Shown here one piece after another: positions 2,071 to 41,203 of a stretch of 44,044 nt of DNA. This stretch comes from Myxococcota bacterium (lineage in GTDB: Bacteria; Myxococcota_C; UBA6777), in NCBI GenBank assembly GCA_023150835.1, contig JAKLKB010000067.1, positions 1 to 44,044 of the forward strand. The letters run 5' to 3'. The position numbers and the translations under genes were made by a program. The notes beneath the pieces are model-generated. The model did no database searches, was not told the origin of the DNA, and saw only the letters and a program-made list of their open reading frames with translations. Every line of letters starts with the position of its first letter. Positions within the stretch are counted from its first letter, which is position 1.

Positions 2071-2562
2071 ATGTCCACCTCCCCGATCTCTCCCCTCCGC
2101 AGCGTGATCCAACGGCCCGATCAACCGCGCCCTCGCAACGTCAAAAAAGTCCCCTACGTCGAACTTTACAGCGGTCGCCTCCAAGGCGTCGTCTCCAGCG
2201 GTTCTGATATCGAACGCGTCTACGTCTCCTTTGTCGAGGCCAACACAGGTAATTTTTATTGCAGCACCAACAACAACCGCCCTTGTAGCGGCCTGAATCA
2301 CTGGGGGCCTTGCAAACACATCGAAGAGATGGCCGAACAAGCCATCGTTCAATATGGCGGCCTCGAAGTCGCCCGTTATCTGGGCGCAAAGCTCGACTCG
2401 GAACATCCCAATTGGTGGGAGATACGCAGCGTCTTGCCCGGATCGCAAACAAGAACTCCTGCCGCCGAAGTCTTCAGCCGCTTTCTCAGCTATCTCCGCT
2501 TCCTTGAACTCCCACGCCATGATGGACCCGCCCCCGAGATGACTTGGTTCACTTCACGCTGA
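2071..2562 (+). CDS. Small SWIM-like zinc-binding protein
   Basis: The 163-residue product opens the five-gene operon. Its core is Cys64-x7-Cys72-x8-Cys81-x-His83, ending in GPCKHIEEMAEQ. This resembles the second half of a SWIM zinc finger (CxCxnCxH), with the first CxC replaced by more widely spaced cysteines. A short beta-rich segment precedes it (VELYSGRLQGVVSSGS), as in other SWIM proteins. SWIM fingers bind DNA or protein; no partner can be read from this sequence. AAAGGAG five bases before ATG 2071 supports the start. In E. coli the SWIM domain of the related locus lies in the much longer YehQ; here it is separate from the next gene, 23 bp downstream. The zinc site is visible; the function is not known. 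Confidence 0.75.
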   Translation: MSTSPISPLRSVIQRPDQPRPRNVKKVPYVELYSGRLQGVVSSGSDIERVYVSFVEANTGNFYCSTNNNRPCSGLNHWGPCKHIEEMAEQAIVQYGGLEVARYLGAKLDSEHPNWWEIRSVLPGSQTRTPAAEVFSRFLSYLRFLELPRHDGPAPEMTWFTSR

Positions 2563-2585
2563 GCGACGAACTCAAAGGAAAAAAG

Positions 2586-3959
2586 ATGACAACCACATGG
2601 AAAGATATCTTGGAAATCCCTCCCGCCGTCCAACACAGCCAAGCGCTGCTCGATGGCTTTGATCGCTGTTTTCTTGTTGGCTTTGGCCGCCTCGGTGAAG
2701 AACACCTCGACACCCTTCATTCTCTCAGCCGTGTCTTTGGGCCGACCCCACTCGGAGAGGCTTTTGCGCACAGCCTCGAAGCCATCGAGCGTTCCGAGTT
2801 CAGCGAAACGCATTTTCAACGCCTCGCCGCTGCACGCGCTGCACTCCAAGGCGCACAACACGACGCCCTCCTCGCACAACTCAGCCAAGATCTCGGTCGC
2901 CCTCTTCATCCCTCTTCGCTCCCCCAAGCCGAAGCCCCCCAAGCCCCGACGGGACTCACCGAAGGCACCCGACAATGGCTGACAGAGCTCGCCCTCGCAG
3001 GTTTCCCCCAACTTACACGCCAAAGCCTTGATCCCTACCTCAACACGCTTGAACAGCTTCAACAAGATCCGTCCTCCGCACGCCTCGCCCTCCTGTTGAC
3101 GGGCTTTCTCGAAGAGATCTCCGCCGCCCTTCCGATCGCTTCGCCCCAGATGGTCCCGTTGCGCCGTTGGGTGGACCTCTGGACCCGCGCCATGCTGCTC
3201 GCCATCCGTACACCTTCCACACAAACCGCAACTCCCGTACAAGGCTCCTTTTTCCCGATGGGCGTCGATATCCACCATCATCCCTTTGCCGTCAGCTACA
3301 CCGTCCACGGCTTGCTCCAAGAAAAAGACGCCTCCCCGCGTTGGATCAAAACCACCCACACCTCCTACAAAGTCGACTTGCTTCAAGATGCCGAAACATG
3401 GCAGCTTTTTGAAACAGACCCTTTTCTTGAGGCGCTCAACGCCGGAAAGTCCGCCGAGATCAAACAAGGCCAGATCCTCGACAGCGGAGAGCTCCTTCCT
3501 CACCCCGACGTGCAACTTGGCAAGCCTTATGATGCCCTTGCTCTCGCCAAAACCCACCTCGCCCTAGAGGCCGAAAAGCCTGTCGCCTCGCTTTCTCCCT
3601 CGCCCATCGATCGCCATCCCGTGCAACTGGCTTTCCCCGTGTGGCTTGAAGGAGTGACTCGAAAAGAGGACGATGCTTCCTCCCTCCAACTGGACGGAAC
3701 CCCCTTGCGCCTCGCCGAAGAACGCATCTCTCTGCTGAGCGGGCTTGAGCAAACCGACCTTCAAAAAGTCCCCAGCATGATCGGACTCTTGCGCTATGAC
3801 CAAGATGGCTATGCCTTCCAACCGCTCGCCCTCATCAAAGACGCCAAAAAAGGCAAGCTGATCTTCGCAGGACAAGAAGCCTCCAAACAAGCCGCCGCCA
3901 AAAAAAGCAAAGTCCTTGAGATCCTCAAAGAGCGCTCCACTCGGTTGCTGCGCAAATAA
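2586..3959 (+). CDS. Unrecognised 457-residue protein of the MoxR/VWA operon
   Basis: I do not recognise a named domain in this 457-residue protein. It appears soluble and mostly helical in the first 230 residues (many Leu, Ala and Gln), with a more mixed second half that includes PMGVDIHHHPFAVSYTV near 220-235. There is no signal peptide or membrane span. The start at ATG 2586 was chosen over an in-frame ATG at 2544, which would overlap the previous gene, because AAAGGAA lies just before 2586. It sits 23 bp after the SWIM gene and 23 bp before the VWA gene, so it is surely co-transcribed. By position and combined length it could be the non-SWIM portion of a YehQ-like protein split into two genes; that is inference. 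Confidence 0.75.
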   Translation: MTTTWKDILEIPPAVQHSQALLDGFDRCFLVGFGRLGEEHLDTLHSLSRVFGPTPLGEAFAHSLEAIERSEFSETHFQRLAAARAALQGAQHDALLAQLSQDLGRPLHPSSLPQAEAPQAPTGLTEGTRQWLTELALAGFPQLTRQSLDPYLNTLEQLQQDPSSARLALLLTGFLEEISAALPIASPQMVPLRRWVDLWTRAMLLAIRTPSTQTATPVQGSFFPMGVDIHHHPFAVSYTVHGLLQEKDASPRWIKTTHTSYKVDLLQDAETWQLFETDPFLEALNAGKSAEIKQGQILDSGELLPHPDVQLGKPYDALALAKTHLALEAEKPVASLSPSPIDRHPVQLAFPVWLEGVTRKEDDASSLQLDGTPLRLAEERISLLSGLEQTDLQKVPSMIGLLRYDQDGYAFQPLALIKDAKKGKLIFAGQEASKQAAAKKSKVLEILKERSTRLLRK

Positions 3960-3982
3960 CCCAACGACCCGACGAGGCGAGC

Positions 3983-5599
3983 ATGTCTACAGAACAATTC
4001 CCAAAGCTGACCCGCCCACAAAAACAGCGGCAGCTTGTCTTTTGGCGGCTCCTCACCGCTGCCTTTGGACACTCCGAAAAAGGCCCCAACATCGAGCAGA
4101 TCACCCTCGACATCGCCGAGCAAGTCAAACTCCCCGCCGACATCCTTGATCCCGCCATCGGTATCGAACAGCTATTGCGCCGTCATCCCCAACTCAAGCC
4201 CGACTTTGACGCCATCGTCCCGCCCGATGCAGACGAGGACGAAAACGCCGAAGACACCGAAACAACAGCCAAGGCCCACCACTCATCGCCTCCCCCCTCC
4301 GCCTCCACCGCTTCGACGGTCCATGACAGCGCAAACTTCCATCCTACCGCTCACACCGAAACTCCCGAGCCCCATGCGCCGCCCACCATCCCTGCCGTCC
4401 AAGACGCCGATCTGCGCCGCAGTTTGGTCTTTTCCAAGCTGATCCTCAACGTCCTCGGCCCAAACACCCAAAGCCCCGTGATCTCGGCCCAACAATACAC
4501 CCAATGGCTTCAAGACCTCCAACACTTCGAGCAAGCCTTTGGCTACGCCCCCGGCCACCTGCTTACTCCGCAAGGCAGCGGACGTGGCGCAGGAAACGCG
4601 ATGTCGAGAGGAGGCCCCGGGCAAGGCAAAGCCGCCCAAGGACAACAGATCGTCGGAGGACAAAAGGGCAGTTTGAACTCGGGACATCCGGGCTTTTCGA
4701 TCAGCGAAGATCAACTGCGCGAAGGACTCTCCATGCTCGAAAGCGGCATGGTTCAACGTATGGAACTGCGCGAAGTCCTCAAAGATCCCCAACTTGCCGC
4801 CAAACTCACCCCTTCGATGGCCCTGACAGAACAACTCTTGCGCGACAAATCCAATCTCTCTGGTGTCGCACTCGCAACAGCCAAATCCTTGATCCAGCGC
4901 TTTGTTGATCAACTGGCCGAAGTCCTCAAAAAACAAGTCCAACAAACCGTCCGCTCCAAGATCGATCGTTCCGTCCCCCCCAAGCGCATCTTTCGCAACC
5001 TCGACCTCAAGCGCACCTTGTGGAAAAACCTCACCAACTGGAACGACAAAGAAAAACGCCTGTATGTCGATCGCCTTTATTACCATCATGCGGCCAAAAA
5101 GAAACTCCCCACGCGCATCATCGTTGTAGTCGATCAATCGGGCTCGATGGTCGAGTCGATGGTTCAATGTACCATCCTCGCCTCGATCTTTGCCGGACTA
5201 CCACGTGTTGAAGTCCACTTGATCGCCTTTGATACCGAAGTGATCGACCTCACCCCTTATGTCCGTGACCCCTTTGAGGTTCTTCTGCGCACCAACCTCG
5301 GCGGCGGAACCTACATCTACAAAGCCCTCGTCGAAGCCGCAAACAAGATCGTCGATCCCGCAAACACCGTCATGGTGCTGATCTCTGACTTCTACGAAGG
5401 CGGTAGCTACGAACTTTTGCTCTCTTATATCAAAAGCCTCAAAGAGTCGGGCGTTCACTTTATCCCCGTGGGAGCCGTGACCAACTCCGGCTACTTTAGC
5501 ATCGATAGCTGGTTTCGCACCAAACTCGGCGAACTCGGGATGCCTATCCTCTCGGGAACCCCCAAAAAACTGATCGAACAACTCAAAAACCTTCTCTAA
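3983..5599 (+). CDS. VWA-domain protein, YehP-like
   Basis: The 538-residue protein has a C-terminal von Willebrand factor A domain (about 373-538) with an intact metal-ion-dependent adhesion site: DQSGSM (about 383-388), the Thr of GGGTY (about 441) and the Asp of LISDFYEGG (about 468). The region before it has a variable, Pro/Ala/Thr-rich stretch (about 90-140), a Gly/Gln-rich stretch (about 195-235) and a helical segment (about 240-370). VWA proteins paired with MoxR ATPases usually serve as metal-dependent adaptors to the substrate or complex being remodelled. It precedes the MoxR gene, from which it is separated by 157 bp holding a family A repeat. There is no signal peptide, so it should act in the cytoplasm. 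The substrate is unknown. Confidence 0.88.
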   Translation: MSTEQFPKLTRPQKQRQLVFWRLLTAAFGHSEKGPNIEQITLDIAEQVKLPADILDPAIGIEQLLRRHPQLKPDFDAIVPPDADEDENAEDTETTAKAHHSSPPPSASTASTVHDSANFHPTAHTETPEPHAPPTIPAVQDADLRRSLVFSKLILNVLGPNTQSPVISAQQYTQWLQDLQHFEQAFGYAPGHLLTPQGSGRGAGNAMSRGGPGQGKAAQGQQIVGGQKGSLNSGHPGFSISEDQLREGLSMLESGMVQRMELREVLKDPQLAAKLTPSMALTEQLLRDKSNLSGVALATAKSLIQRFVDQLAEVLKKQVQQTVRSKIDRSVPPKRIFRNLDLKRTLWKNLTNWNDKEKRLYVDRLYYHHAAKKKLPTRIIVVVDQSGSMVESMVQCTILASIFAGLPRVEVHLIAFDTEVIDLTPYVRDPFEVLLRTNLGGGTYIYKALVEAANKIVDPANTVMVLISDFYEGGSYELLLSYIKSLKESGVHFIPVGAVTNSGYFSIDSWFRTKLGELGMPILSGTPKKLIEQLKNLL

Positions 5600-5610
5600 A
5601 GAGGGCTTAG

Positions 5611-5732
5611 ACAAGATCAGCCCACCGCGTGATCGCAAAATGGTGGGGCAGCCCCCTGCGGCTGCCCAACCACAGGGCGTTTACAACGGATCACATCGAC
5701 CCTTCGTGTACACTTCTCACGGATATCGTGTT
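5611..5732 (+). repeat. Family A repeat inside the operon
   Basis: This copy begins 12 bp after the VWA stop codon and ends before the MoxR ribosome binding site. It shows the family landmarks in order: a degenerate left end (AAGATCAGCCC), GCGTGATCGCAAAA, the hairpin GGGGCAGCCCCCTGCGGCTGCC, ACAGGGCGT, and the right end CGGATATCGTG. An in-frame upstream extension of the MoxR gene (ATG 5640) is produced only by this repeat. A hairpin here could weaken read-through or stabilise the upstream transcript; that is inference. Confidence 0.8.
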
Positions 5733-5756
5733 ATCAGATCGAAAGGATACCTGTTC

Positions 5757-7028
5757 ATGGCCAAGAAAAAAGCCCTCGTTCAAGAAGCCACCGAAGCCCA
5801 AGCTGTCACCGAAACCCAAGCCGAGATCGCCGCCACCTCCACCGAAGCAGCCTCCTCGCCTTCCGTTGCCACCGAAGCAGCCCCCAAACCTTCCAATCCC
5901 CCCAAGGCAGAAGAAAATCTGCGCGAACCTGCCGAAGTCAAATATGCCGAAGAACTCGCTTGGTTGGAGTCGGTCGATACAGGCAACAAGCCCTTTTCAT
6001 GGCGTCTCTCTCCTCGAATGATCCGCACTTTTATTCTTGGAACACAGCCGGGTGAAAAACTCGCTCGTAAGATCGATCAAAAGTTCTTTGGTGATGCGAC
6101 GCTTGTCGAACGCGCCATCGTCACGCTCGCTTCGGATCGCGGCTTGTTGCTGATCGGCGATCCCGGGACAGGAAAAAGCTGGCTCGCCGAACTGTTGGCC
6201 GCTGCGATCTGTGGCAACTCCACCCATGTCGTCCAAGGCACCGCAGGAACCACCGAAGATCAGATCAAATACTCATGGAACGTCGCACTCGTCATCTCCC
6301 AAGGCCAATCCCGCGACTCGATGATCGCCTCTCCCATGATGAAGGCCATGCAACTCGGTCAGATGGGCCGTTTTGAAGAACTCACACGCTGCACTTCCGA
6401 TGTCCAAGACGCCCTGATCTCCATCCTCAGCGAAAAATACATCGCCATCCCCGAACTCAGCACAAACAACGTCGTCTTCGCCCGCCCCGGCTTCAACATC
6501 ATCGCCACCGCAAATAGCCGCGACCGTGGCGTCAATGACCTCTCTAGCGCACTCAAACGCCGCTTCAATTTTATCCACATCCCGATCGTCACAAACAAAA
6601 AATCCGAGCGTGAGATCGTCATGTTCCGCACCCGCGACCTGCTGCGCCGAAACAACTTTGATATCGACGTTCCCGCCGTCTTGATGGATGTCCTCTTGCA
6701 AACCTTCGCCGATATGCGCGAATCCGCCGCTGCTGCCGCTTCGGACGATCAACGCCTCGAATCCTCTCTCTCTACCGCCGAACAGATCGGCGTTCTCGAA
6801 GATGCCATCCTTTACGGCAACTTCTTCGGTGAAAAGCTGCTTACCGCAAACGCCCTTGCCCGCTCGGTGATCGGCGGTCTCGTTCGCCGTGTCCCCGAAG
6901 ATCTCTCTGTGATGAACAAGTTTTGGCACGCTGTCGTGGAAAAACACGCCAAAGAAAACAAAAAAGACAACACTTGGAAGGAGTTTTCCGAAGGCGGAAA
7001 ATCCATCATGAGCGATATGTCGAAATAA
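5757..7028 (+). CDS. MoxR-family AAA+ ATPase, YehL type
   Basis: The 423-residue protein has a MoxR-type AAA+ core after an Ala/Pro/Glu-rich N-terminal tail (about 1-60). Walker A is GDPGTGKSW (about 134-142). The Walker B region reads MGRFEELTRC (about 202-211), with Glu-Glu in place of the usual Asp-Glu. Sensor 1 is ATANSRDRG (about 250-258) and the arginine-finger region is ALKRRFNF (about 264-271). MoxR ATPases form hexamers and work with VWA proteins as chaperone-like remodelling machines; YehL is one of the recognised MoxR subfamilies. ATG 5757 was chosen over ATG 5640 because GAAAGGA precedes it and the upstream part is repeat sequence. It lies between the VWA gene and the DUF5682 gene, a typical arrangement for this group. 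Confidence 0.9.
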   Translation: MAKKKALVQEATEAQAVTETQAEIAATSTEAASSPSVATEAAPKPSNPPKAEENLREPAEVKYAEELAWLESVDTGNKPFSWRLSPRMIRTFILGTQPGEKLARKIDQKFFGDATLVERAIVTLASDRGLLLIGDPGTGKSWLAELLAAAICGNSTHVVQGTAGTTEDQIKYSWNVALVISQGQSRDSMIASPMMKAMQLGQMGRFEELTRCTSDVQDALISILSEKYIAIPELSTNNVVFARPGFNIIATANSRDRGVNDLSSALKRRFNFIHIPIVTNKKSEREIVMFRTRDLLRRNNFDIDVPAVLMDVLLQTFADMRESAAAAASDDQRLESSLSTAEQIGVLEDAILYGNFFGEKLLTANALARSVIGGLVRRVPEDLSVMNKFWHAVVEKHAKENKKDNTWKEFSEGGKSIMSDMSK

Positions 7029-7076
7029 CGAACACGACGCCCTTCACCTGCCCGAACGATCGACAAGGACGAGACG

Positions 7077-10000
7077 ATGCCGCAACCACAAAAAAGCCGC
7101 ACCATCGCACAAGATCGCTTTGCTCCCTTACGCGGCCAGCTCCTCGCCGCAGTACAAGCCTTTTCCCAAGGCACCCACGCCATCGACAAGATGCTCGCCG
7201 CCATCGTGGACGATATGGAGCGCGCAACCAACGAACCCGTCGAGATCTTCCCTGTGGCCCACCACTCTCCCGCAGCCGCCATCCAGATCTTGCGCCGCCT
7301 CCAAGACGGCCCTACCCCCAAGGTCATCTTTGTGGAGTTGTGCGAAGATCTCCAACCCGTCCTACCCGGCCTCGCGGATTGTCAACTGCCGATCGCTCTC
7401 CAATCCTTTGCCACCGAAACAGCGGGCTTTCCGCCTGATTGGTCTCCGTTGACCGTTGTGGCCCCACTGACCGAGTTTTCCGCCGAATTTCAGGCCATCG
7501 CTTATGCGCTCAGCCACCCCGAACAGACCCAACTCGTCTTTGTCGATCGCTCGGTCGATCACATCTTTCAATGGCTCCCTCAACAAGAAGGCGCACTTGC
7601 CGAAGCCCTCGGCCACTCAGAAGATGAAGAAAGCATCTCCGAAGAAGCCGATGAAAACCTTCATGGAACCGCCTACGGCGTACAGATGGGACGAATGGAG
7701 CCGACATTCGAAGGCTTCCAAGAAGTCCTGCTCTCAAACGCCCGTGTACGCCACTTCTCCGAATGGTGGGACCAATACGTCGAGTCCTCGATCGTCGGCG
7801 CGGATTATCAAACTTACCGCGAAGTCATGTGTCTCGTGGGAAGCCTGATCCGCCGCCTCGGTCAATCCAAAGAACGGCTCGAAAATGACCGAAAACGCGA
7901 GCGTTATATGTGGACGCGGATCAAAGAACACCTCGCACAACACAAACTCCAGCCCGAAGAAACGCTGTTTATCTGCGGAGCCGCACACACCGCCTCAGAC
8001 GTCGACTCTTTTGGAACCCAAACTCCCCACCGCGATCCGATCCCGCCCCGCACCCAAACCAAATGGCTATACGGGATCATCCCTTCGAGCTTTCGCTCCA
8101 TCGAACAACAATTCGGTATGCCCGACGGGGCGATCTCGATCGCCGAAAGTGCGTGGAAACGAAGCCAAGAAGCCCTTGGACTGCGCTCTCTCGCGATCAA
8201 AGATATCAAAGACACCTCCCAAGCCAAACCAGCCCCCAAGAAAACCCCCAAAAAAACCACCCACCCGATCGATCCAACCAACGATGACGACGCCTCTTCC
8301 TCACCCATCGCGTCCATTTCAAGCGTTCCCGATGTCTTGGGCTTTTTGCAACGTCCGCCTCAGCTACTCGAACAAGACGAAGAACAACTCTTACGTTGGT
8401 GCGTTGAGATCGTCTCGATGGCCCGAGAAAACGGATACCTCGCTTCCACAGCCGATGCGATCGCCATCTACCAAACGGCGATCTTGCTTGGACGGATGCG
8501 AAACCGCCATCATCCCTCGCCTTACGACTTTCAAGACGCGGCGATCACCTGCCTCGAAAAAGATCGCACGCCCAAAAAGCGCAACGTCCAACGCTTATGC
8601 GAGATCTTGCTTGGCGGCGATCGCAGCGGTCATGTCGGTTATTCTTCTCTGCCTCCCCTCGCACAAGACGTCTACGACCGACTCTCCGCCTTGCCCGTCA
8701 CCCTCAAAGGAAAAACCATCCAGCGCGCTTTGATGGACTTTCGCCAAAATCCCGAATACTCCGCCTGTTCCGATCTGCTGTGGCGGCTTCATTACCTGCT
8801 CGGAAAAAACAATTCCCTTGTTCGCCCGATCATGGGTGAGCGCAACCTCGGGCAACGCGCTCTCCAAGAGTCATGGGATATCTCCATCGGAAAATACCAA
8901 GCCCCTCTGATCCAACTCGCTTACGAAGGCGTCTCCATCGAACAAGTCCTCGAACGTCGTTTGTTGCAGTATGCCTTTTCCTCCAAAGCCCGCACCGTCC
9001 AAGCCCTCGAAGCCACCGAGGACAGTCTGCTTTATCTGGAGGCTCGCCGACTCACCCAACGCCTCGGCGAACACGCCAACGATCTGCTCGTCCAAGAACT
9101 CGCAGCCGACGCCGCCCAAGATATCTTCGAGCGCGTCCGTCGCCTTGTGCATTACTACCGATCTACCCCAGAAGGTCTCCCGCCTTGGCTCCAACACTTC
9201 GTTGCAACGGGCTATTCGCACTTTTCCACCATGCTTCCCGAAGCCTTCAGCGATCGTGGCACTTCTCCCCAACAGATCAGCGGTATGTTGGCCTTTATCT
9301 TTACGCTCGAAAGCCTCGCTCTTTCGATGGGTTGCGAACGCAGCCAATTGATGATCGCGATCAAACAATCCGCATCGCTCACCCAAGATCCCGAAAAACT
9401 CGGGATCTTGTGGGCTGCAGAGTGGCTCCTTAGCGTTCGTGATATCGAGGAGATCCGCAGCTTCTTTGATCACCTGCTGGAAAATCCATTGACCCTTGCG
9501 GCTTTTCCCCGCTATCTCGATGGGTTTTTGCTTGCGCTCACCTTTACTCCGCTCGTCAGCCGATTGATCGTCGAACTGCTCTCCAAAGCCTTTGAACGCC
9601 TCCCTGATCAAGTGTTGATGCCGTGGCTACCGTCGCTTTTAATGGGCTTGCGCTCGCACAGCAACACCCTTCTCCCTTCCATCCTCCAAGAAGTCGCTCA
9701 GATCTATCCCAAAACCTCCAAAGAACTCGATGCGTGGATCGCCCCTTGGTATCGAGAACGCCGCAAACGCAAGACCACCATCCCCACCCCCCTCGTCCAA
9801 GAGATCCGCCCTGCTCTTCCCACGCTTTCTAACGAAGAACGCAGCATCTTTCAGATCATGGCCGATCATCCCCAAACCACCGACGCCCTCGCTCACCTGT
9901 TCGGAGTCGCCACAACATGGCGTTCTCCTGAAACAACCGAAACACCCGCCTCATCGACCGCTACTGCGGCTTTCCATGACCAACGCGAAGCCGACATCCA

Positions 10001-10244
10001 CGCAATTTTGCGCCATCATCCCCAAACCACCGACGCCCTCTCTTCATGGCTTGGGCTCTCCGCTTCGTGGCCCACAGAACCCACACATACGCCATCCGCT
10101 CTTGTCAGCGCAAAGCCCCATGCCAACGCCATCACCGAATATCTAGAACCCGAAGCCGCCGCTGCTGCCGCCCTCCTTCACCACCACCCCCAAACCCTCA
10201 CCGCCCTCGTCAAACATCTCATACCCAATCCGCAGAGTGTATGA
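7077..10244 (+). CDS. DUF5682 protein, YehM-like, with altered C-terminus
   Basis: The 1055-residue product is the last gene of the operon, with AAGGA before ATG 7077. The N-terminal part carries PVAHHSPAAA (about 58-67) followed by VIFVELCED, and later LFICGAAHTASD (about 298-309). These are the landmarks of DUF5682, which I relate tentatively to the EreA/ChaN/TraB-like fold. A low-complexity Lys/Pro/Thr linker (about 380-405) leads to a long helical region. Near the C-terminus the motif HPQTTDAL recurs at about 928, 980 and 1034. The last residues (IPNPQSV) are encoded by a family A repeat inserted into the 3' end; the downstream duplicate suggests the older end was KHLTR-stop. No transmembrane segment was seen. 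The E. coli relative YehM is uncharacterised, so no activity is assigned. Confidence 0.88.
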   Translation: MPQPQKSRTIAQDRFAPLRGQLLAAVQAFSQGTHAIDKMLAAIVDDMERATNEPVEIFPVAHHSPAAAIQILRRLQDGPTPKVIFVELCEDLQPVLPGLADCQLPIALQSFATETAGFPPDWSPLTVVAPLTEFSAEFQAIAYALSHPEQTQLVFVDRSVDHIFQWLPQQEGALAEALGHSEDEESISEEADENLHGTAYGVQMGRMEPTFEGFQEVLLSNARVRHFSEWWDQYVESSIVGADYQTYREVMCLVGSLIRRLGQSKERLENDRKRERYMWTRIKEHLAQHKLQPEETLFICGAAHTASDVDSFGTQTPHRDPIPPRTQTKWLYGIIPSSFRSIEQQFGMPDGAISIAESAWKRSQEALGLRSLAIKDIKDTSQAKPAPKKTPKKTTHPIDPTNDDDASSSPIASISSVPDVLGFLQRPPQLLEQDEEQLLRWCVEIVSMARENGYLASTADAIAIYQTAILLGRMRNRHHPSPYDFQDAAITCLEKDRTPKKRNVQRLCEILLGGDRSGHVGYSSLPPLAQDVYDRLSALPVTLKGKTIQRALMDFRQNPEYSACSDLLWRLHYLLGKNNSLVRPIMGERNLGQRALQESWDISIGKYQAPLIQLAYEGVSIEQVLERRLLQYAFSSKARTVQALEATEDSLLYLEARRLTQRLGEHANDLLVQELAADAAQDIFERVRRLVHYYRSTPEGLPPWLQHFVATGYSHFSTMLPEAFSDRGTSPQQISGMLAFIFTLESLALSMGCERSQLMIAIKQSASLTQDPEKLGILWAAEWLLSVRDIEEIRSFFDHLLENPLTLAAFPRYLDGFLLALTFTPLVSRLIVELLSKAFERLPDQVLMPWLPSLLMGLRSHSNTLLPSILQEVAQIYPKTSKELDAWIAPWYRERRKRKTTIPTPLVQEIRPALPTLSNEERSIFQIMADHPQTTDALAHLFGVATTWRSPETTETPASSTATAAFHDQREADIHAILRHHPQTTDALSSWLGLSASWPTEPTHTPSALVSAKPHANAITEYLEPEAAAAAALLHHHPQTLTALVKHLIPNPQSV

Positions 10245-10346
10245 TCGTGAAAGTGTAGGGGCAGCCCCCCGTGGCTGCCCAAAAACAGGACGTCTACAGA
10301 GGATCGCACCTCCCCGTTGATCTCACCGCCCTCGTCAAACATCTCA
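10197..10346 (+). repeat. 25-bp direct repeats flanking an inserted element
   Basis: Bases 10197-10221 and 10322-10346 are identical over 25 bp. The first copy is the coding end of the DUF5682 gene (LTALVKHL). The second lies after the inserted family A repeat, continues CCCGCTAG and so would restore a KHLTR-stop ending. The simplest reading is that the 100 bp between them were inserted with duplication of the target. Confidence 0.85.
10222..10321 (+). repeat. Family A repeat inserted in the DUF5682 3' end
   Basis: The element reads ATCCGCAGAGTGTATGATCG, then GTGTAGGGGCAGCC, a hairpin with GGCTGCCC, AGGACGTCTAC and GGATCGCACC, matching other family A members in the same orientation. It supplies the present stop codon of the upstream gene, and its hairpin lies just after that stop. 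It occupies the gap between convergent genes and could help terminate transcription. Confidence 0.8.
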
Positions 10347-10367
10347 CCCGCTAGGCCATGACTCCTA

Positions 10368-14876: not shown

Positions 14877-14888
14877 ATTTCCTAGAAC

Positions 14889-15005
14889 TTATACGAGATC
14901 CGCCCGTTGTGTGATCGTAAAGATGTAGGGGTAGCCCCCCGTGGCTGCCCGATCATAGGGCATCTACATACTCTCGTTTGTGTGCATCACTCGGATATCG
15001 TATGA
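14889..15005 (+). repeat. Family A repeat, complete copy
   Basis: This is the cleanest single copy. The left end is ATACGAGATCCG (14891-14902) and the right end CGGATATCGTAT (14992-15003), an imperfect inverted pair with one mismatch. Between them lie GTGTGATCGTAAAGATGTAG, the hairpin GTAGCC...GGCTGCCC and GGGCATCTACATACTCTC. It starts 13 bp after the lipoprotein stop codon. Confidence 0.85.
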
Positions 15006-22912: not shown

Positions 22913-23025
22913 ATACGATATCCGGAAGAAGCGTACACAAAGCATCATTCGGATACGCCCGATTATCGGGCAGCCACAGGGGGCTGCCCCTACATTTACG
23001 ATCACACTATGGGCGGATTTCGTAT
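22913..23025 (-). repeat. Family A repeat, tandem copy 1
   Basis: It runs from ATACGATATCCG (22913) to CGGATTTCGTAT (23014-23025), in the opposite orientation to the copy at 14889. GGGCAGCCACAGGGGGCTGC forms the central hairpin. It starts 15 bp after the AI-2E transporter stop codon. Confidence 0.85.
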
Positions 23026-23026
23026 T

Positions 23027-23142
23027 ATACGATCTCCGAGTGATGCACACAGCAAAGGAGAATACGTAGACGCCCGATTATTGGGCAGCCCCCTGTGGCT
23101 GCCCCTACATTTTTACGATCACACAACGGGCGGATCTCGTAT
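23027..23142 (-). repeat. Family A repeat, tandem copy 2
   Basis: It runs from ATACGATCTCCG (23027) to CGGATCTCGTAT (23131-23142). The last T overlaps the TTA that flanks the IS5-derived element, so that element was inserted exactly at the end of this repeat. Confidence 0.85.
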
Positions 23143-23707: not shown

Positions 23708-23724
23708 TCAACTGCTTAAGTCCT

Positions 23725-23923
23725 ATACGAAATCCGCCCATCATGTGCGCCCAAATGTAGGGGCAGCCCCCTGTGGCTGCCCAACCACAGGGTGTCTACA
23801 GCGGATCGCACACAACACATCACACGCCCCGACCCTTATGGTTGGGAAGATGGCTGCCCAACCATAAGGGTGTCTACAGCGGATCGCACCTACCCCTCGT
23901 GTACACTTCTTTCGGATATCGTG
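23725..23923 (+). repeat. Family A repeat, composite copy
   Basis: The left end is ATACGAAATCCG (23725) and the right end CGGATATCGTG (23913-23923), but the middle is longer than usual. The unit with GGCTGCCCAACCA and GGGTGTCTACAGCGGATCGC occurs twice, near 23776 and 23850, so this is a full element with an internal duplication. It ends 53 bp beyond the apaG stop codon. Confidence 0.8.
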
Positions 23924-33985: not shown

Positions 33986-34176
33986 GATTCGATAGATCTC
34001 AAACAAGAAAAACGAAGTTTAATAGGTTCACAGCATGGCACGGAACAAACCGCCAAAGCAAGAGCCACCCCCAAAAAGGTCCATGAAAGATACGGAAGAT
34101 ACGGAAAGAAGGCAGCCCGACGCTTCGGAATGCACGAAAAGAACAGAAAGGGGGGGGAAAGAACGAAAGGAGGTGG

Positions 34177-34290
34177 TACGAGATCCGGCCATCGCGTGAT
34201 CGTAAAGGTGTAGGGGCAGCAAGGCGTGGCTGCCCAACAATCGGGCATTTACGCACTCTCCTACGATCACAGATCTCTCGGATATCGTAT
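34177..34290 (+). repeat. Family A repeat at the coxD stop codon
   Basis: It runs from TACGAGATCCG (34177) to CGGATATCGTAT (34279-34290). The central hairpin is GGGCAGC...GGCTGCCC. The last T forms part of the TAA stop codon (34290-34292) of the minus-strand coxD-cytochrome gene, so the insertion is at the very end of that gene. Confidence 0.8.
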
Positions 34291-35270
34291 TATTTCTTGA
34301 GGGAGAGGAGATACTTGGCGATGGACCAACGATCGTTGTCGGGGATATGGGCGTAAGCCACCATGCCAGAGGCTTTATTGGGAGAGCCGTTGGAGAGGAC
34401 TTTGTAGATATCGCCGAGGCTACCGCCGTATTTGTAATTTCCGAGTGCAAAGTTGGCGGGTTTGACGGGCAAAGCAGCGGCAGCGGCTCCGTCGCCTTTG
34501 CCTTCGTTGCCGTGACAAGTCCAACAAGCATTGGCTTGGTAAAGCTTTTTGCCTGCCGCAAGCGAGGCAGCGTCGAACTGCGCGGCGGGGCGGGCCGCAG
34601 GTGCTGGAGCAGGTGCTGTCGGGCGGGCCGCAGGTGCTGTCGGACGGGCCGCAGGTGCTGGAGCAGGCGTTGTTGGACGGGCCACAGGTGCTGGAGCAGG
34701 CGTTGTTGGACGGGCCACAGGTGCTGGAGTCGCGGGGCGGGCGGCGGGTTGAGCCACTTTCGCGACACCGCGTTTTGCGGGGGTGGGATGCGCGGCAGCT
34801 TTGACGACATTGCCATGCGCGCCGTGTCCGTGTCCGTGATCGCCGCGTTTTTTGGCCTCATCGCAGACCTTTTTTCGGCGGTCGTTGTTTTTGAGGATCT
34901 CGGGATCGCAAAAAGGTTTGCCATCGATCAGGTTGACTTGGGTATGTTCTTCGGGAACCCATGTATCGCGAGCACCAAGATCATACACGGTGAAGGCGAA
35001 GAAGACGCCAAGAAAAACGATGGAGCTTGCAAAGAACAGAGAAAGAAAGCGGTCGTCGTAGCGCAGGTGCATAAAGTACCCCACCACAAAGCCTGCTTTG
35101 ATCAAAGCAACGGTCATCGCGATAGGGATAGCCAAGGCCCCAAGGCCCAGTTGAGAGACTTTGACCGTGATGTAGGTGAGGATCATCAGAGCAAAAAATA
35201 CCCCGAAGTAGATCGACAACGGGAGGACATGAGGCTCGTGAGAGCCATGAGAATCTTTGTGATGAGACAT
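34290..35270 (-). CDS. coxD: Cytochrome oxidase subunit IV fused to cytochrome c
   Basis: The 326-residue protein starts as a bacterial cytochrome c oxidase subunit IV (about 1-110), with three spans: IYFGVFFALMILTYITVKV, ALAIPIAMTVALIKAGFVVG (then YFMHLRYDDRF) and FFASSIVFLGVFFAFTVY. A His/Gly-rich part (GHGHGAHG), then a linker of Ala/Pro repeats (PTTPAPAPVAR, about 180-235), leads to a cytochrome c domain with CWTCHGNEGKGDG (about 248-260) and a distal Met in ASGMVAY. The fusion keeps the electron donor tethered to the oxidase. The start at ATG 35270 has GGAGT upstream. The last domain matches the two in the di-heme gene at 40001-41203 closely. The family A copy abuts the stop codon. Confidence 0.9.
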   Translation of the reverse strand: MSHHKDSHGSHEPHVLPLSIYFGVFFALMILTYITVKVSQLGLGALAIPIAMTVALIKAGFVVGYFMHLRYDDRFLSLFFASSIVFLGVFFAFTVYDLGARDTWVPEEHTQVNLIDGKPFCDPEILKNNDRRKKVCDEAKKRGDHGHGHGAHGNVVKAAAHPTPAKRGVAKVAQPAARPATPAPVARPTTPAPAPVARPTTPAPAPAARPTAPAARPTAPAPAPAARPAAQFDAASLAAGKKLYQANACWTCHGNEGKGDGAAAAALPVKPANFALGNYKYGGSLGDIYKVLSNGSPNKASGMVAYAHIPDNDRWSIAKYLLSLKK

Positions 35271-40000: not shown

Positions 40001-41203
40001 CTATTTTTTCAAAGACACCAGAAACTTGGCGATATCCCATCGGGTATTTTCGGGGATATGGGTATAGCCCACCATGCCGGAGGCTTTGTTGGGGGAGCCG
40101 TTGGAGAGGACTTTGTAGATATCACCAAGGCTGTTGCCGTATTTGTAGTTCGCAAGCACAAAGTTGGCGGGTTTGACGGGCAAAGCGGCGGCAGCGGCTC
40201 CGTCGCCTTTGCCTTCATTGCCGTGACAAGTCCAACAAGCATTCGCTTGGTAGGCTTGTTTCCCGCGTGCGATGGCGGCGGTATCTACGGCAGGGGCTTG
40301 GGGGCGAGGGGCAGGGGCTTGAGCGCGAGCAGCGGGCCGAGGCGCGGGGCTTGGCGCTTTTGGTGCAACAGGTGCAGCGGAGGCTTTCAACGAAAAGACG
40401 TACTTGGCAAGCGACCAGCGATCATTTTCGGGGATATGGGTATAAGCCACCATGCCAGAGGCTTTGTTGGGAGAGCCGTTGGAAAGGACTTTGAAGATAT
40501 CGCCTAGGTTGCCGCCGTATTTGTAGTTACCGAGTGCGAAATTCGCGGGTTTGACGGGCAAAGCGGCAGCAGCGGCTCCGTCGCCTTTGCCTTCGTTGCC
40601 ATGACAAGTCCAACAAGCATTCGCTTGGTAAAGTTTTTTGCCCGCAGCGATGGAAGCTGCGTCGATCTGGGGAGCGGGTGGAGGGATATCGCGACGAAGG
40701 GTGGGAGCAGCTTTGGGAGCTTCGCGGCGAGCGGTGGGGGCAGCTTTGGGAGCCTCACGACGAGCGACAGGGGCAGGAGCCTCGCGGCGGGGCGTGGGAG
40801 CGGAAGCCTCTTGCGTGGGAGAGAATGTCTTGAAGTATTGGGGATGTTTGATCAGGTATTGGATCCCCTGTTCGATGGGAGCGACATCATAGGTGACGTT
40901 TTGGGTACGGCCTTGGATCTCGACGCTTGCGGAGACTTGTCCGCCTTTTTGGGCGAGAGCCTGATCTTTTTGGCGGAAGGCAACGGAATCTGCGCGGATG
41001 GATGTCTCTTTTTCAAGGATATCCCTTGTCGTCCAAAAGCCGAGTATTTGTGTCGCAGCGACCATCGCGCCGACGATGGCGACGCTCAGGAACGTTAAAA
41101 AAGCCCCCAAACCAGCCGTATAGGGCTTGTCGTCTTCGAAGCCTTGGAGGTCGGCGGCGTGGGTGGATTCTTGTTTGGATTTGTCTTTCTCGTGGGTACT
41201 CAC
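40001..41203 (-). CDS. Di-heme cytochrome c with two near-identical domains
   Basis: The 400-residue protein has one N-terminal anchor (AGLGAFLTFLSVAIVGAMVA, about 31-50), a short soluble segment (about 60-130), an Ala/Pro/Arg-rich linker (about 135-180), a first cytochrome domain with CWTCHGNEGKGDG (about 199-211), a second Ala/Pro linker, and a second domain with the same motif (about 324-336). The two domains differ at few residues and match the one on CoxD. It sits between actF and sco1 and should pass electrons from alternative complex III to caa3. The start was set at GTG 41203 with GAGG eight bases upstream; the frame from 41254 begins right at a hairpin. Confidence 0.9.
   Translation of the reverse strand: MSTHEKDKSKQESTHAADLQGFEDDKPYTAGLGAFLTFLSVAIVGAMVAATQILGFWTTRDILEKETSIRADSVAFRQKDQALAQKGGQVSASVEIQGRTQNVTYDVAPIEQGIQYLIKHPQYFKTFSPTQEASAPTPRREAPAPVARREAPKAAPTARREAPKAAPTLRRDIPPPAPQIDAASIAAGKKLYQANACWTCHGNEGKGDGAAAAALPVKPANFALGNYKYGGNLGDIFKVLSNGSPNKASGMVAYTHIPENDRWSLAKYVFSLKASAAPVAPKAPSPAPRPAARAQAPAPRPQAPAVDTAAIARGKQAYQANACWTCHGNEGKGDGAAAAALPVKPANFVLANYKYGNSLGDIYKVLSNGSPNKASGMVGYTHIPENTRWDIAKFLVSLKK

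Follow-up and report, generated by a model that had tools for sequence, protein, structure and literature searches.

The 44,044-nucleotide (nt) contig JAKLKB010000067.1 of a Myxococcota bacterium (GCA_023150835.1), referred to here as the window, carries five consecutive plus-strand genes for a SWIM-like zinc protein, a protein designated B, a VWA protein, a YehL-type MoxR AAA+ ATPase and a DUF5682 protein. The five-gene set is a conserved bacterial unit and a new form of the known but uncharacterised YehL-type systems. Its products may make up a YehL-MoxR-type device in the cytoplasm, with five subunits and powered by ATP, around a TIKI-type hydrolase, in which the SWIM-like protein and B would recognise the substrate. 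This functional reading is tentative.

All five open reading frames (ORFs) are co-directional and lie where a first-pass annotation, made from the DNA letters alone, had placed them (Table 1). Its naming of the VWA, MoxR and DUF5682 proteins agrees with their Pfam matches. Purine-rich, ribosome-binding-like sequences were found upstream of all five starts, most clearly for genes 1, 2 and 4. The spacers measure 23, 23, 157 and 48 nt in gene order. The short spacers described previously are thus confirmed except between the VWA and MoxR genes, where the 157 nt include one copy of a palindromic repeat that is dispersed in the genome, and where 125 nt are missing from the congener KLAP109 (L029).

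A scan of genome contigs with an alignment of B confirmed at least 453 relatives, 80 of which were kept and inspected together with six earlier loci (86 in total). Nearly all of the 80 belong to Actinomycetota and two come from metagenome-assembled genomes of Myxococcota/Deltaproteobacteria. The order SWIM-B-VWA-MoxR-DUF5682 on one strand was observed in 85 of the 86 loci and the remaining locus ends at a contig edge. This conservation rules out a chance arrangement, and the SWIM and VWA genes are kept beside those for MoxR and DUF5682 in relatives, as the first-pass annotation had presumed. Searches by tblastn and blastp recovered the complete set, identically arranged, from Nonomuraea, Embleya and Streptomyces megaplasmid records; identities were approx. 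52, 32, 45, 70 and 46% for SWIM, B, VWA, MoxR and DUF5682, respectively. Among the flanking genes of the inspected loci, no family outside the five recurs in more than five loci. Given the constant order and the lack of a recurrent flanking family, the five genes are regarded as a self-contained unit.

The occurrence of the unit is patchy. B is present in two of five genomes of the window's own family and in 18 of 247 species sampled from a single actinomycete class, and megaplasmids are among the carriers of the unit. A scan of viral contigs with MoxR gave no relative. The patchy occurrence, which extends to megaplasmids, would suit a MoxR-vWA ternary system (VMAP and others) serving in conflict or anti-phage defence, with DUF5682 as effector and SWIM/B as sensor, and such systems, likewise composed of MoxR, a vWA protein and a third protein, are widespread in actinobacteria (PMC7159879). 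However, they carry an effector fused after the VWA domain, whereas VWA_CoxE covers residues 316–531 of the 538-residue protein with no domain behind it. The components are also very conserved (approx. 70% identity for MoxR across phyla) and not fast-diversifying, defence genes do not recur as neighbours, and PADLOC returned only weak generic AAA/VWA hits and no conflict family. A role in conflict is therefore improbable and the least likely of the explanations considered here.

The annotation as a YehL-type MoxR/VWA/DUF5682 set holds. E. coli yehL-yehM-yehP-yehQ is an operon that likewise encodes a homologous MoxR (YehL, 38% identity), DUF5682 protein (YehM, 24.5%) and VWA protein (YehP, 34%) together with a zinc protein of the SWIM type, although in the order MoxR, DUF5682, VWA, SWIM. 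The set of the window differs further by the extra protein B, by a DUF5682 protein of 1055 residues with a tail repeat and by its MoxR, which is placed in a clade of its own. In a quick tree with long outgroup branches, 85 MoxR rows formed this separate clade with a support of 100, outside yehL, OUT27 and the other DUF5682-associated subtypes, and the Myxococcota rows branched outside the actinomycete ones. Searches of PDB sequences with MoxR and with the DUF5682 domain profile yielded nothing useful. The metal-ion-dependent adhesion site (MIDAS) of the VWA protein is intact as claimed before, with DxSxS at residues 384–388 and the T and D residues read downstream in GGGT and SD.

E. coli K-12 has just two MoxR proteins, one of them YehL. 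MoxR/VWA remodelling-chaperone pairs include NorQD, CbbQO and RavA-ViaA. NorQD and similar pairs remodel their targets in an ATP-driven manner and contact them through the VWA MIDAS, which in NorQD is required for the target and dispensable for MoxR binding (PMC9976466). The window's pair shares with NorQ/NorD, CbbQ/CbbO and RavA/ViaA the combination of a MoxR AAA+ ATPase with a VWA protein containing an intact MIDAS; those pairs, however, represent other MoxR subfamilies, while three further conserved subunits are present here. By analogy with NorQD, a MoxR hexamer and the VWA partner would remodel a target that docks via the MIDAS, possibly DUF5682 or its substrate. The YehL subfamily has been named in the literature (PMC3893208, PMC11432383), but the papers found assign no role to YehL. 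DUF5682 is not mentioned in the literature searched, and an eLife survey of MoxR-vWA conflict systems mentions neither SWIM nor yeh genes (PMC7159879). On these grounds the arrangement is considered a new form within a known group.

The DUF5682 protein had been described as a large HH-motif protein. The HH motif is indeed invariant, but a predicted TIKI-superfamily enzyme core had been missed. Even before a structure search, a link to the TraB/ChaN/EreA group was suggested by its HHSP, (V/I)E and CGA(A/W)H motifs. For the N-terminal 385 residues, an AlphaFold2 (AF2) model was built from 46 sequences (predicted local distance difference test, pLDDT, 74.7; predicted template-modelling score, pTM, 0.76) and Foldseek candidates were re-aligned with VIA. 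The top five matches among solved structures were a pair of Tetrahymena complex IV chains (Z 9.4 and 9.3), ChaN (Z 7.2 over 162 residues), RRSP (Z 5.6) and the EreA-like BcR135 (Z 5.0), followed by unrelated entries with Z 4.5 and lower. The two Tetrahymena chains are presumably the TraB-family subunit of their complex. Such a subunit is reported in the corresponding paper (PMC10060162), and RRSP, ChaN and Bcr135 have been grouped as TIKI proteins, active members of which possess a 2His/2Glu catalytic set; in RRSP the catalytic His, Glu and His sit on successive strands (PMC6254334).

Ten divergent DUF5682 proteins taken from different loci, among them E. coli YehM, all share H62, H63, P65, E87, D157 and H304. 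In the model, H62/H63, E87 and H304 are placed like the TIKI His/Glu/His at similar strand positions, with one extra His relative to the TIKI set. Two of 46 relatives gave a weak match to Pfam TraB_PrgY_gumN (E 0.12). With moderate confidence, the N-terminal domain thus appears to have the fold of the TIKI superfamily (TraB/PrgY, ChaN, EreA, RRSP), an assignment which is new as far as our searches show. The DUF5682 protein departs from the superfamily in having HH-x-P instead of E-x-H, a long C-terminal helical scaffold and, in this subtype, constant MoxR/VWA neighbours. The tail repeats listed in Table 1 have similar but divergent counterparts in relatives (H[PA]..CDA). A weak DprA winged-helix match was also noted at residues 912–944 (E 0.009). 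At another locus (L024, 8597–10834), a DUF5682 gene has no MoxR, VWA or SWIM hit within its 19-kb surroundings and is possibly a stand-alone member of the family.

The first-pass proposal of a cytoplasmic remodelling machine was generic; the predicted TIKI core would give such a remodeller a putative hydrolase as its partner. DUF5682 would contribute, on a helical scaffold, a hydrolase domain of the TraB/ChaN/EreA type, either as an enzyme under the control of MoxR/VWA or as a partner on which they work. Several points speak against a hydrolase device. Foldseek alone gave no TIKI match for the model (best E 0.45, all unrelated), VIA only re-aligned 286 Foldseek candidates, and three of its five top Z values are below the caution line of 8. 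The first Glu of the 2His/2Glu set (E-x-H) is absent, so that catalysis is only inferred, and ChaN and PMT show that a TIKI fold can be non-hydrolytic. The OB-like similarity of B described below is weak as well (Z 6.3 or less). Finally, the physical association of the five proteins is hypothetical, as is the device itself.

The ChaN match would also suit a chaperone for cofactor insertion or maturation: a metallo- or haem enzyme would be the client that MoxR/VWA remodel, and the ChaN-like fold of DUF5682 would bind or deliver haem or metal without hydrolysis. ChaN binds haem, metalloenzyme maturation is carried out by MoxR/VWA pairs such as NorQD (PMC9976466), and a client could be encoded elsewhere, so that a metalloenzyme-like neighbour is not necessary. 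Still, no client gene recurs in the flanks and the invariant H-E-H of DUF5682 resembles the TIKI catalytic set. We consider such a chaperone unlikely and prefer the hydrolase device.

Substrate recognition in this device would fall to the SWIM-like protein and B. The product of the first gene shows 45–84% identity to its neighbours' counterparts across the 86 loci, and C64, C72, C81, H83 and TNNNR (residues 66–70) are invariant in 87 of 87 alignment rows. As annotated before, an invariant Cys/His site is located on a separate 163-residue protein; its pattern C-x7-C-x8-C-x-H, however, differs from the canonical SWIM pattern CxCxnCxH. Pfam SWIM (PF04434) did not match at E ≤ 1, nor did a Pfam scan find any other family in this protein. 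It is therefore termed SWIM-like. In contrast, E. coli YehQ (614 residues) has two CxCxnCxH sites and matches Pfam SWIM. A YehQ gene with 96% identity was seen on an IMG/VR contig (L119), which may be a host fragment binned as viral. PADLOC, NCBIfam and PHROGs contained no informative family for the SWIM-like protein or B.

Protein B was previously reported to lack a recognised domain. This is true for Pfam, where nothing scored above the cut-off (a DUF2300 match with E 0.012 was dismissed for this reason), but the AF2 model from a 41-row alignment (pLDDT 83.7, pTM 0.83) predicts an N-terminal helical domain (residues 1–207), an all-beta region (211–419) and a C-terminal helix. Foldseek found no significant match to this model in the PDB. 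The VIA list was dominated by OB-fold entries (SSB, PriB, RPA, HIN and LEF-3), with a best Z of 6.3, which is also under the caution line of 8, and several pairs (HIN, RPA70, LEF-3) cover residues 211–420. A tandem OB-like region at 211–419 is thus probable, although weakly inferred from the model.

The SWIM-like protein and B had been proposed to correspond to a split YehQ. Both were compared by hhalign with profiles of YehQ and of two SWIM types from other DUF5682 loci, using reversed-profile controls. These types, seen at L022 16011–17354, L026 3961–6867 and L021 7069–8481, are differently built proteins of 447 residues (SWIM-447) and 968 residues with HEAT-like repeats (SWIM-HEAT), which match each other over 392 columns with E 4e-15. 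They resemble the present pair in combining SWIM with a C-terminal region of approx. 350 residues at the same kind of locus, but are single polypeptides. B matched none of the three profiles significantly; its sole alignment with YehQ is in register at the C-terminus, with a non-significant E of approx. 0.1 over 21 columns. Values near 1e-3 carry no weight here, as YehQ against the reversed merged profile reached E 0.0016. For this reason, the colinear match of YehQ to SWIM-447 (E 0.002) was discounted, and no weight was given to the match of the SWIM-like protein to the merged SWIM-447/HEAT profile (E 8e-4, 24% probability). The combined length of the SWIM-like protein and B (620 residues) is close to that of YehQ, which is suggestive only.

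SWIM and B were found in one reading frame in two loci, L028 (670 residues) and L079. The fused genes that the split proposal called for do exist and lend it partial support, but both are nested in one supported Streptomyces clade of the quick MoxR tree, and the fusion is probably secondary. It nevertheless supports that the SWIM-like protein and B form one functional module, which may bring in a substrate, either protein or nucleic acid. The derived position of the fusions and the non-significant YehQ comparison would also be expected if B was recruited independently of YehQ and DUF5682 was a mere structural partner of a MoxR/VWA remodeller, and no activity is known for any DUF5682 protein. 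Against this stand the same gene set, the similar total length and the in-register C-terminal match to YehQ, together with the TIKI-fold model and its conserved polar residues. This possibility appears quite unlikely to us, and the hydrolase device with its SWIM/B recognition module remains preferred.

Beyond the five genes, the palindromic repeat with the core GGGGCAGCCCCCTGTGGCTGCCC is dispersed in the window's genome, with 359 matches of the core pattern compared to 0 for the reversed control. The repeat-bearing stretch at the 3' end of the DUF5682 gene alters the last residues of the protein and is surrounded by a duplicated 25-nt sequence (10197–10221 and 10322–10346). Since this stretch and the one in the VWA-MoxR spacer are both absent from KLAP109, and given the duplication, the repeat seems to move or to be lost. 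A segment of approx. 287 nt is present in three copies with 79–86% identity (34303–34589, 40014–40300 and 40392–40678) and codes for a cytochrome-c-like domain that is repeated within two genes of a cluster for a terminal oxidase.

Table 1. Features of the five-gene unit and of the repeats in the window.
Feature	Position	Strand	Basis
SWIM-like zinc protein gene, subunit 1, 163 residues	2071–2562	+	ORF
Predicted zinc site C-STNNNRP-C-x8-C-K-H, residues 64–83	2260–2319	+	motif reading
Protein B gene, subunit 2, 457 residues	2586–3959	+	ORF
Probable tandem OB-like region of B, residues 211–419	3216–3842	+	VIA list
VWA (CoxE/YehP-type) protein gene, 538 residues	3983–5599	+	ORF; Pfam VWA_CoxE 2.5e-36
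MIDAS DxSxS, residues 384–388	5132–5146	+	motif reading
Repeat-bearing stretch in VWA-MoxR spacer	5610–5734	+	comparison with KLAP109
YehL-type MoxR AAA+ ATPase gene, 423 residues	5757–7028	+	ORF; Pfam AAA_5 6.5e-37
Walker A GDPGTGKS, residue 134 onward, intact	6156–6179	+	motif reading
DUF5682/YehM-type protein gene, 1055 residues	7077–10244	+	Pfam DUF5682 2.5e-33, two stretches
Predicted TIKI-fold domain, approx. residues 53–365	7233–8171	+	AF2 model, VIA
HHSP motif, H62 H63 S64 P65	7260–7271	+	H62, H63, P65 invariant in 10 DUF5682 proteins
Invariant E87	7335–7337	+	10 DUF5682 proteins
Invariant H304, CGAAH/CGAWH motif	7986–7988	+	10 DUF5682 proteins
C-terminal tail carrying HPQT three times, at residues 931, 981 and 1037	9867–10241	+	sequence reading
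Repeat-bearing stretch at DUF5682 gene 3' end	10222–10366		comparison with KLAP109
Palindromic repeat copies	1–243, 5638–5695, 10218–10308, 14888–14978, 22916–23112, 23720–23810, 34173–34263		

The five-gene variant puts the zinc site and B on separate, clean subunits and is frequent enough in actinomycetes for genetic study. The predicted hydrolase fold in the largest protein makes the function of the machine testable: if DUF5682 is a TIKI-type hydrolase, H11, H12 and E35 of E. coli YehM are residues that can be mutated at once. Wider and more doubtful is a generalisation to the YehL-type MoxR systems, E. coli yehLMPQ among them: they would be ATP-gated hydrolases, with DUF5682 as a TIKI enzyme under the control of a MoxR/VWA ring and with substrate choice left to a SWIM/OB-like module. 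They would then constitute a new class of AAA+-controlled hydrolase.

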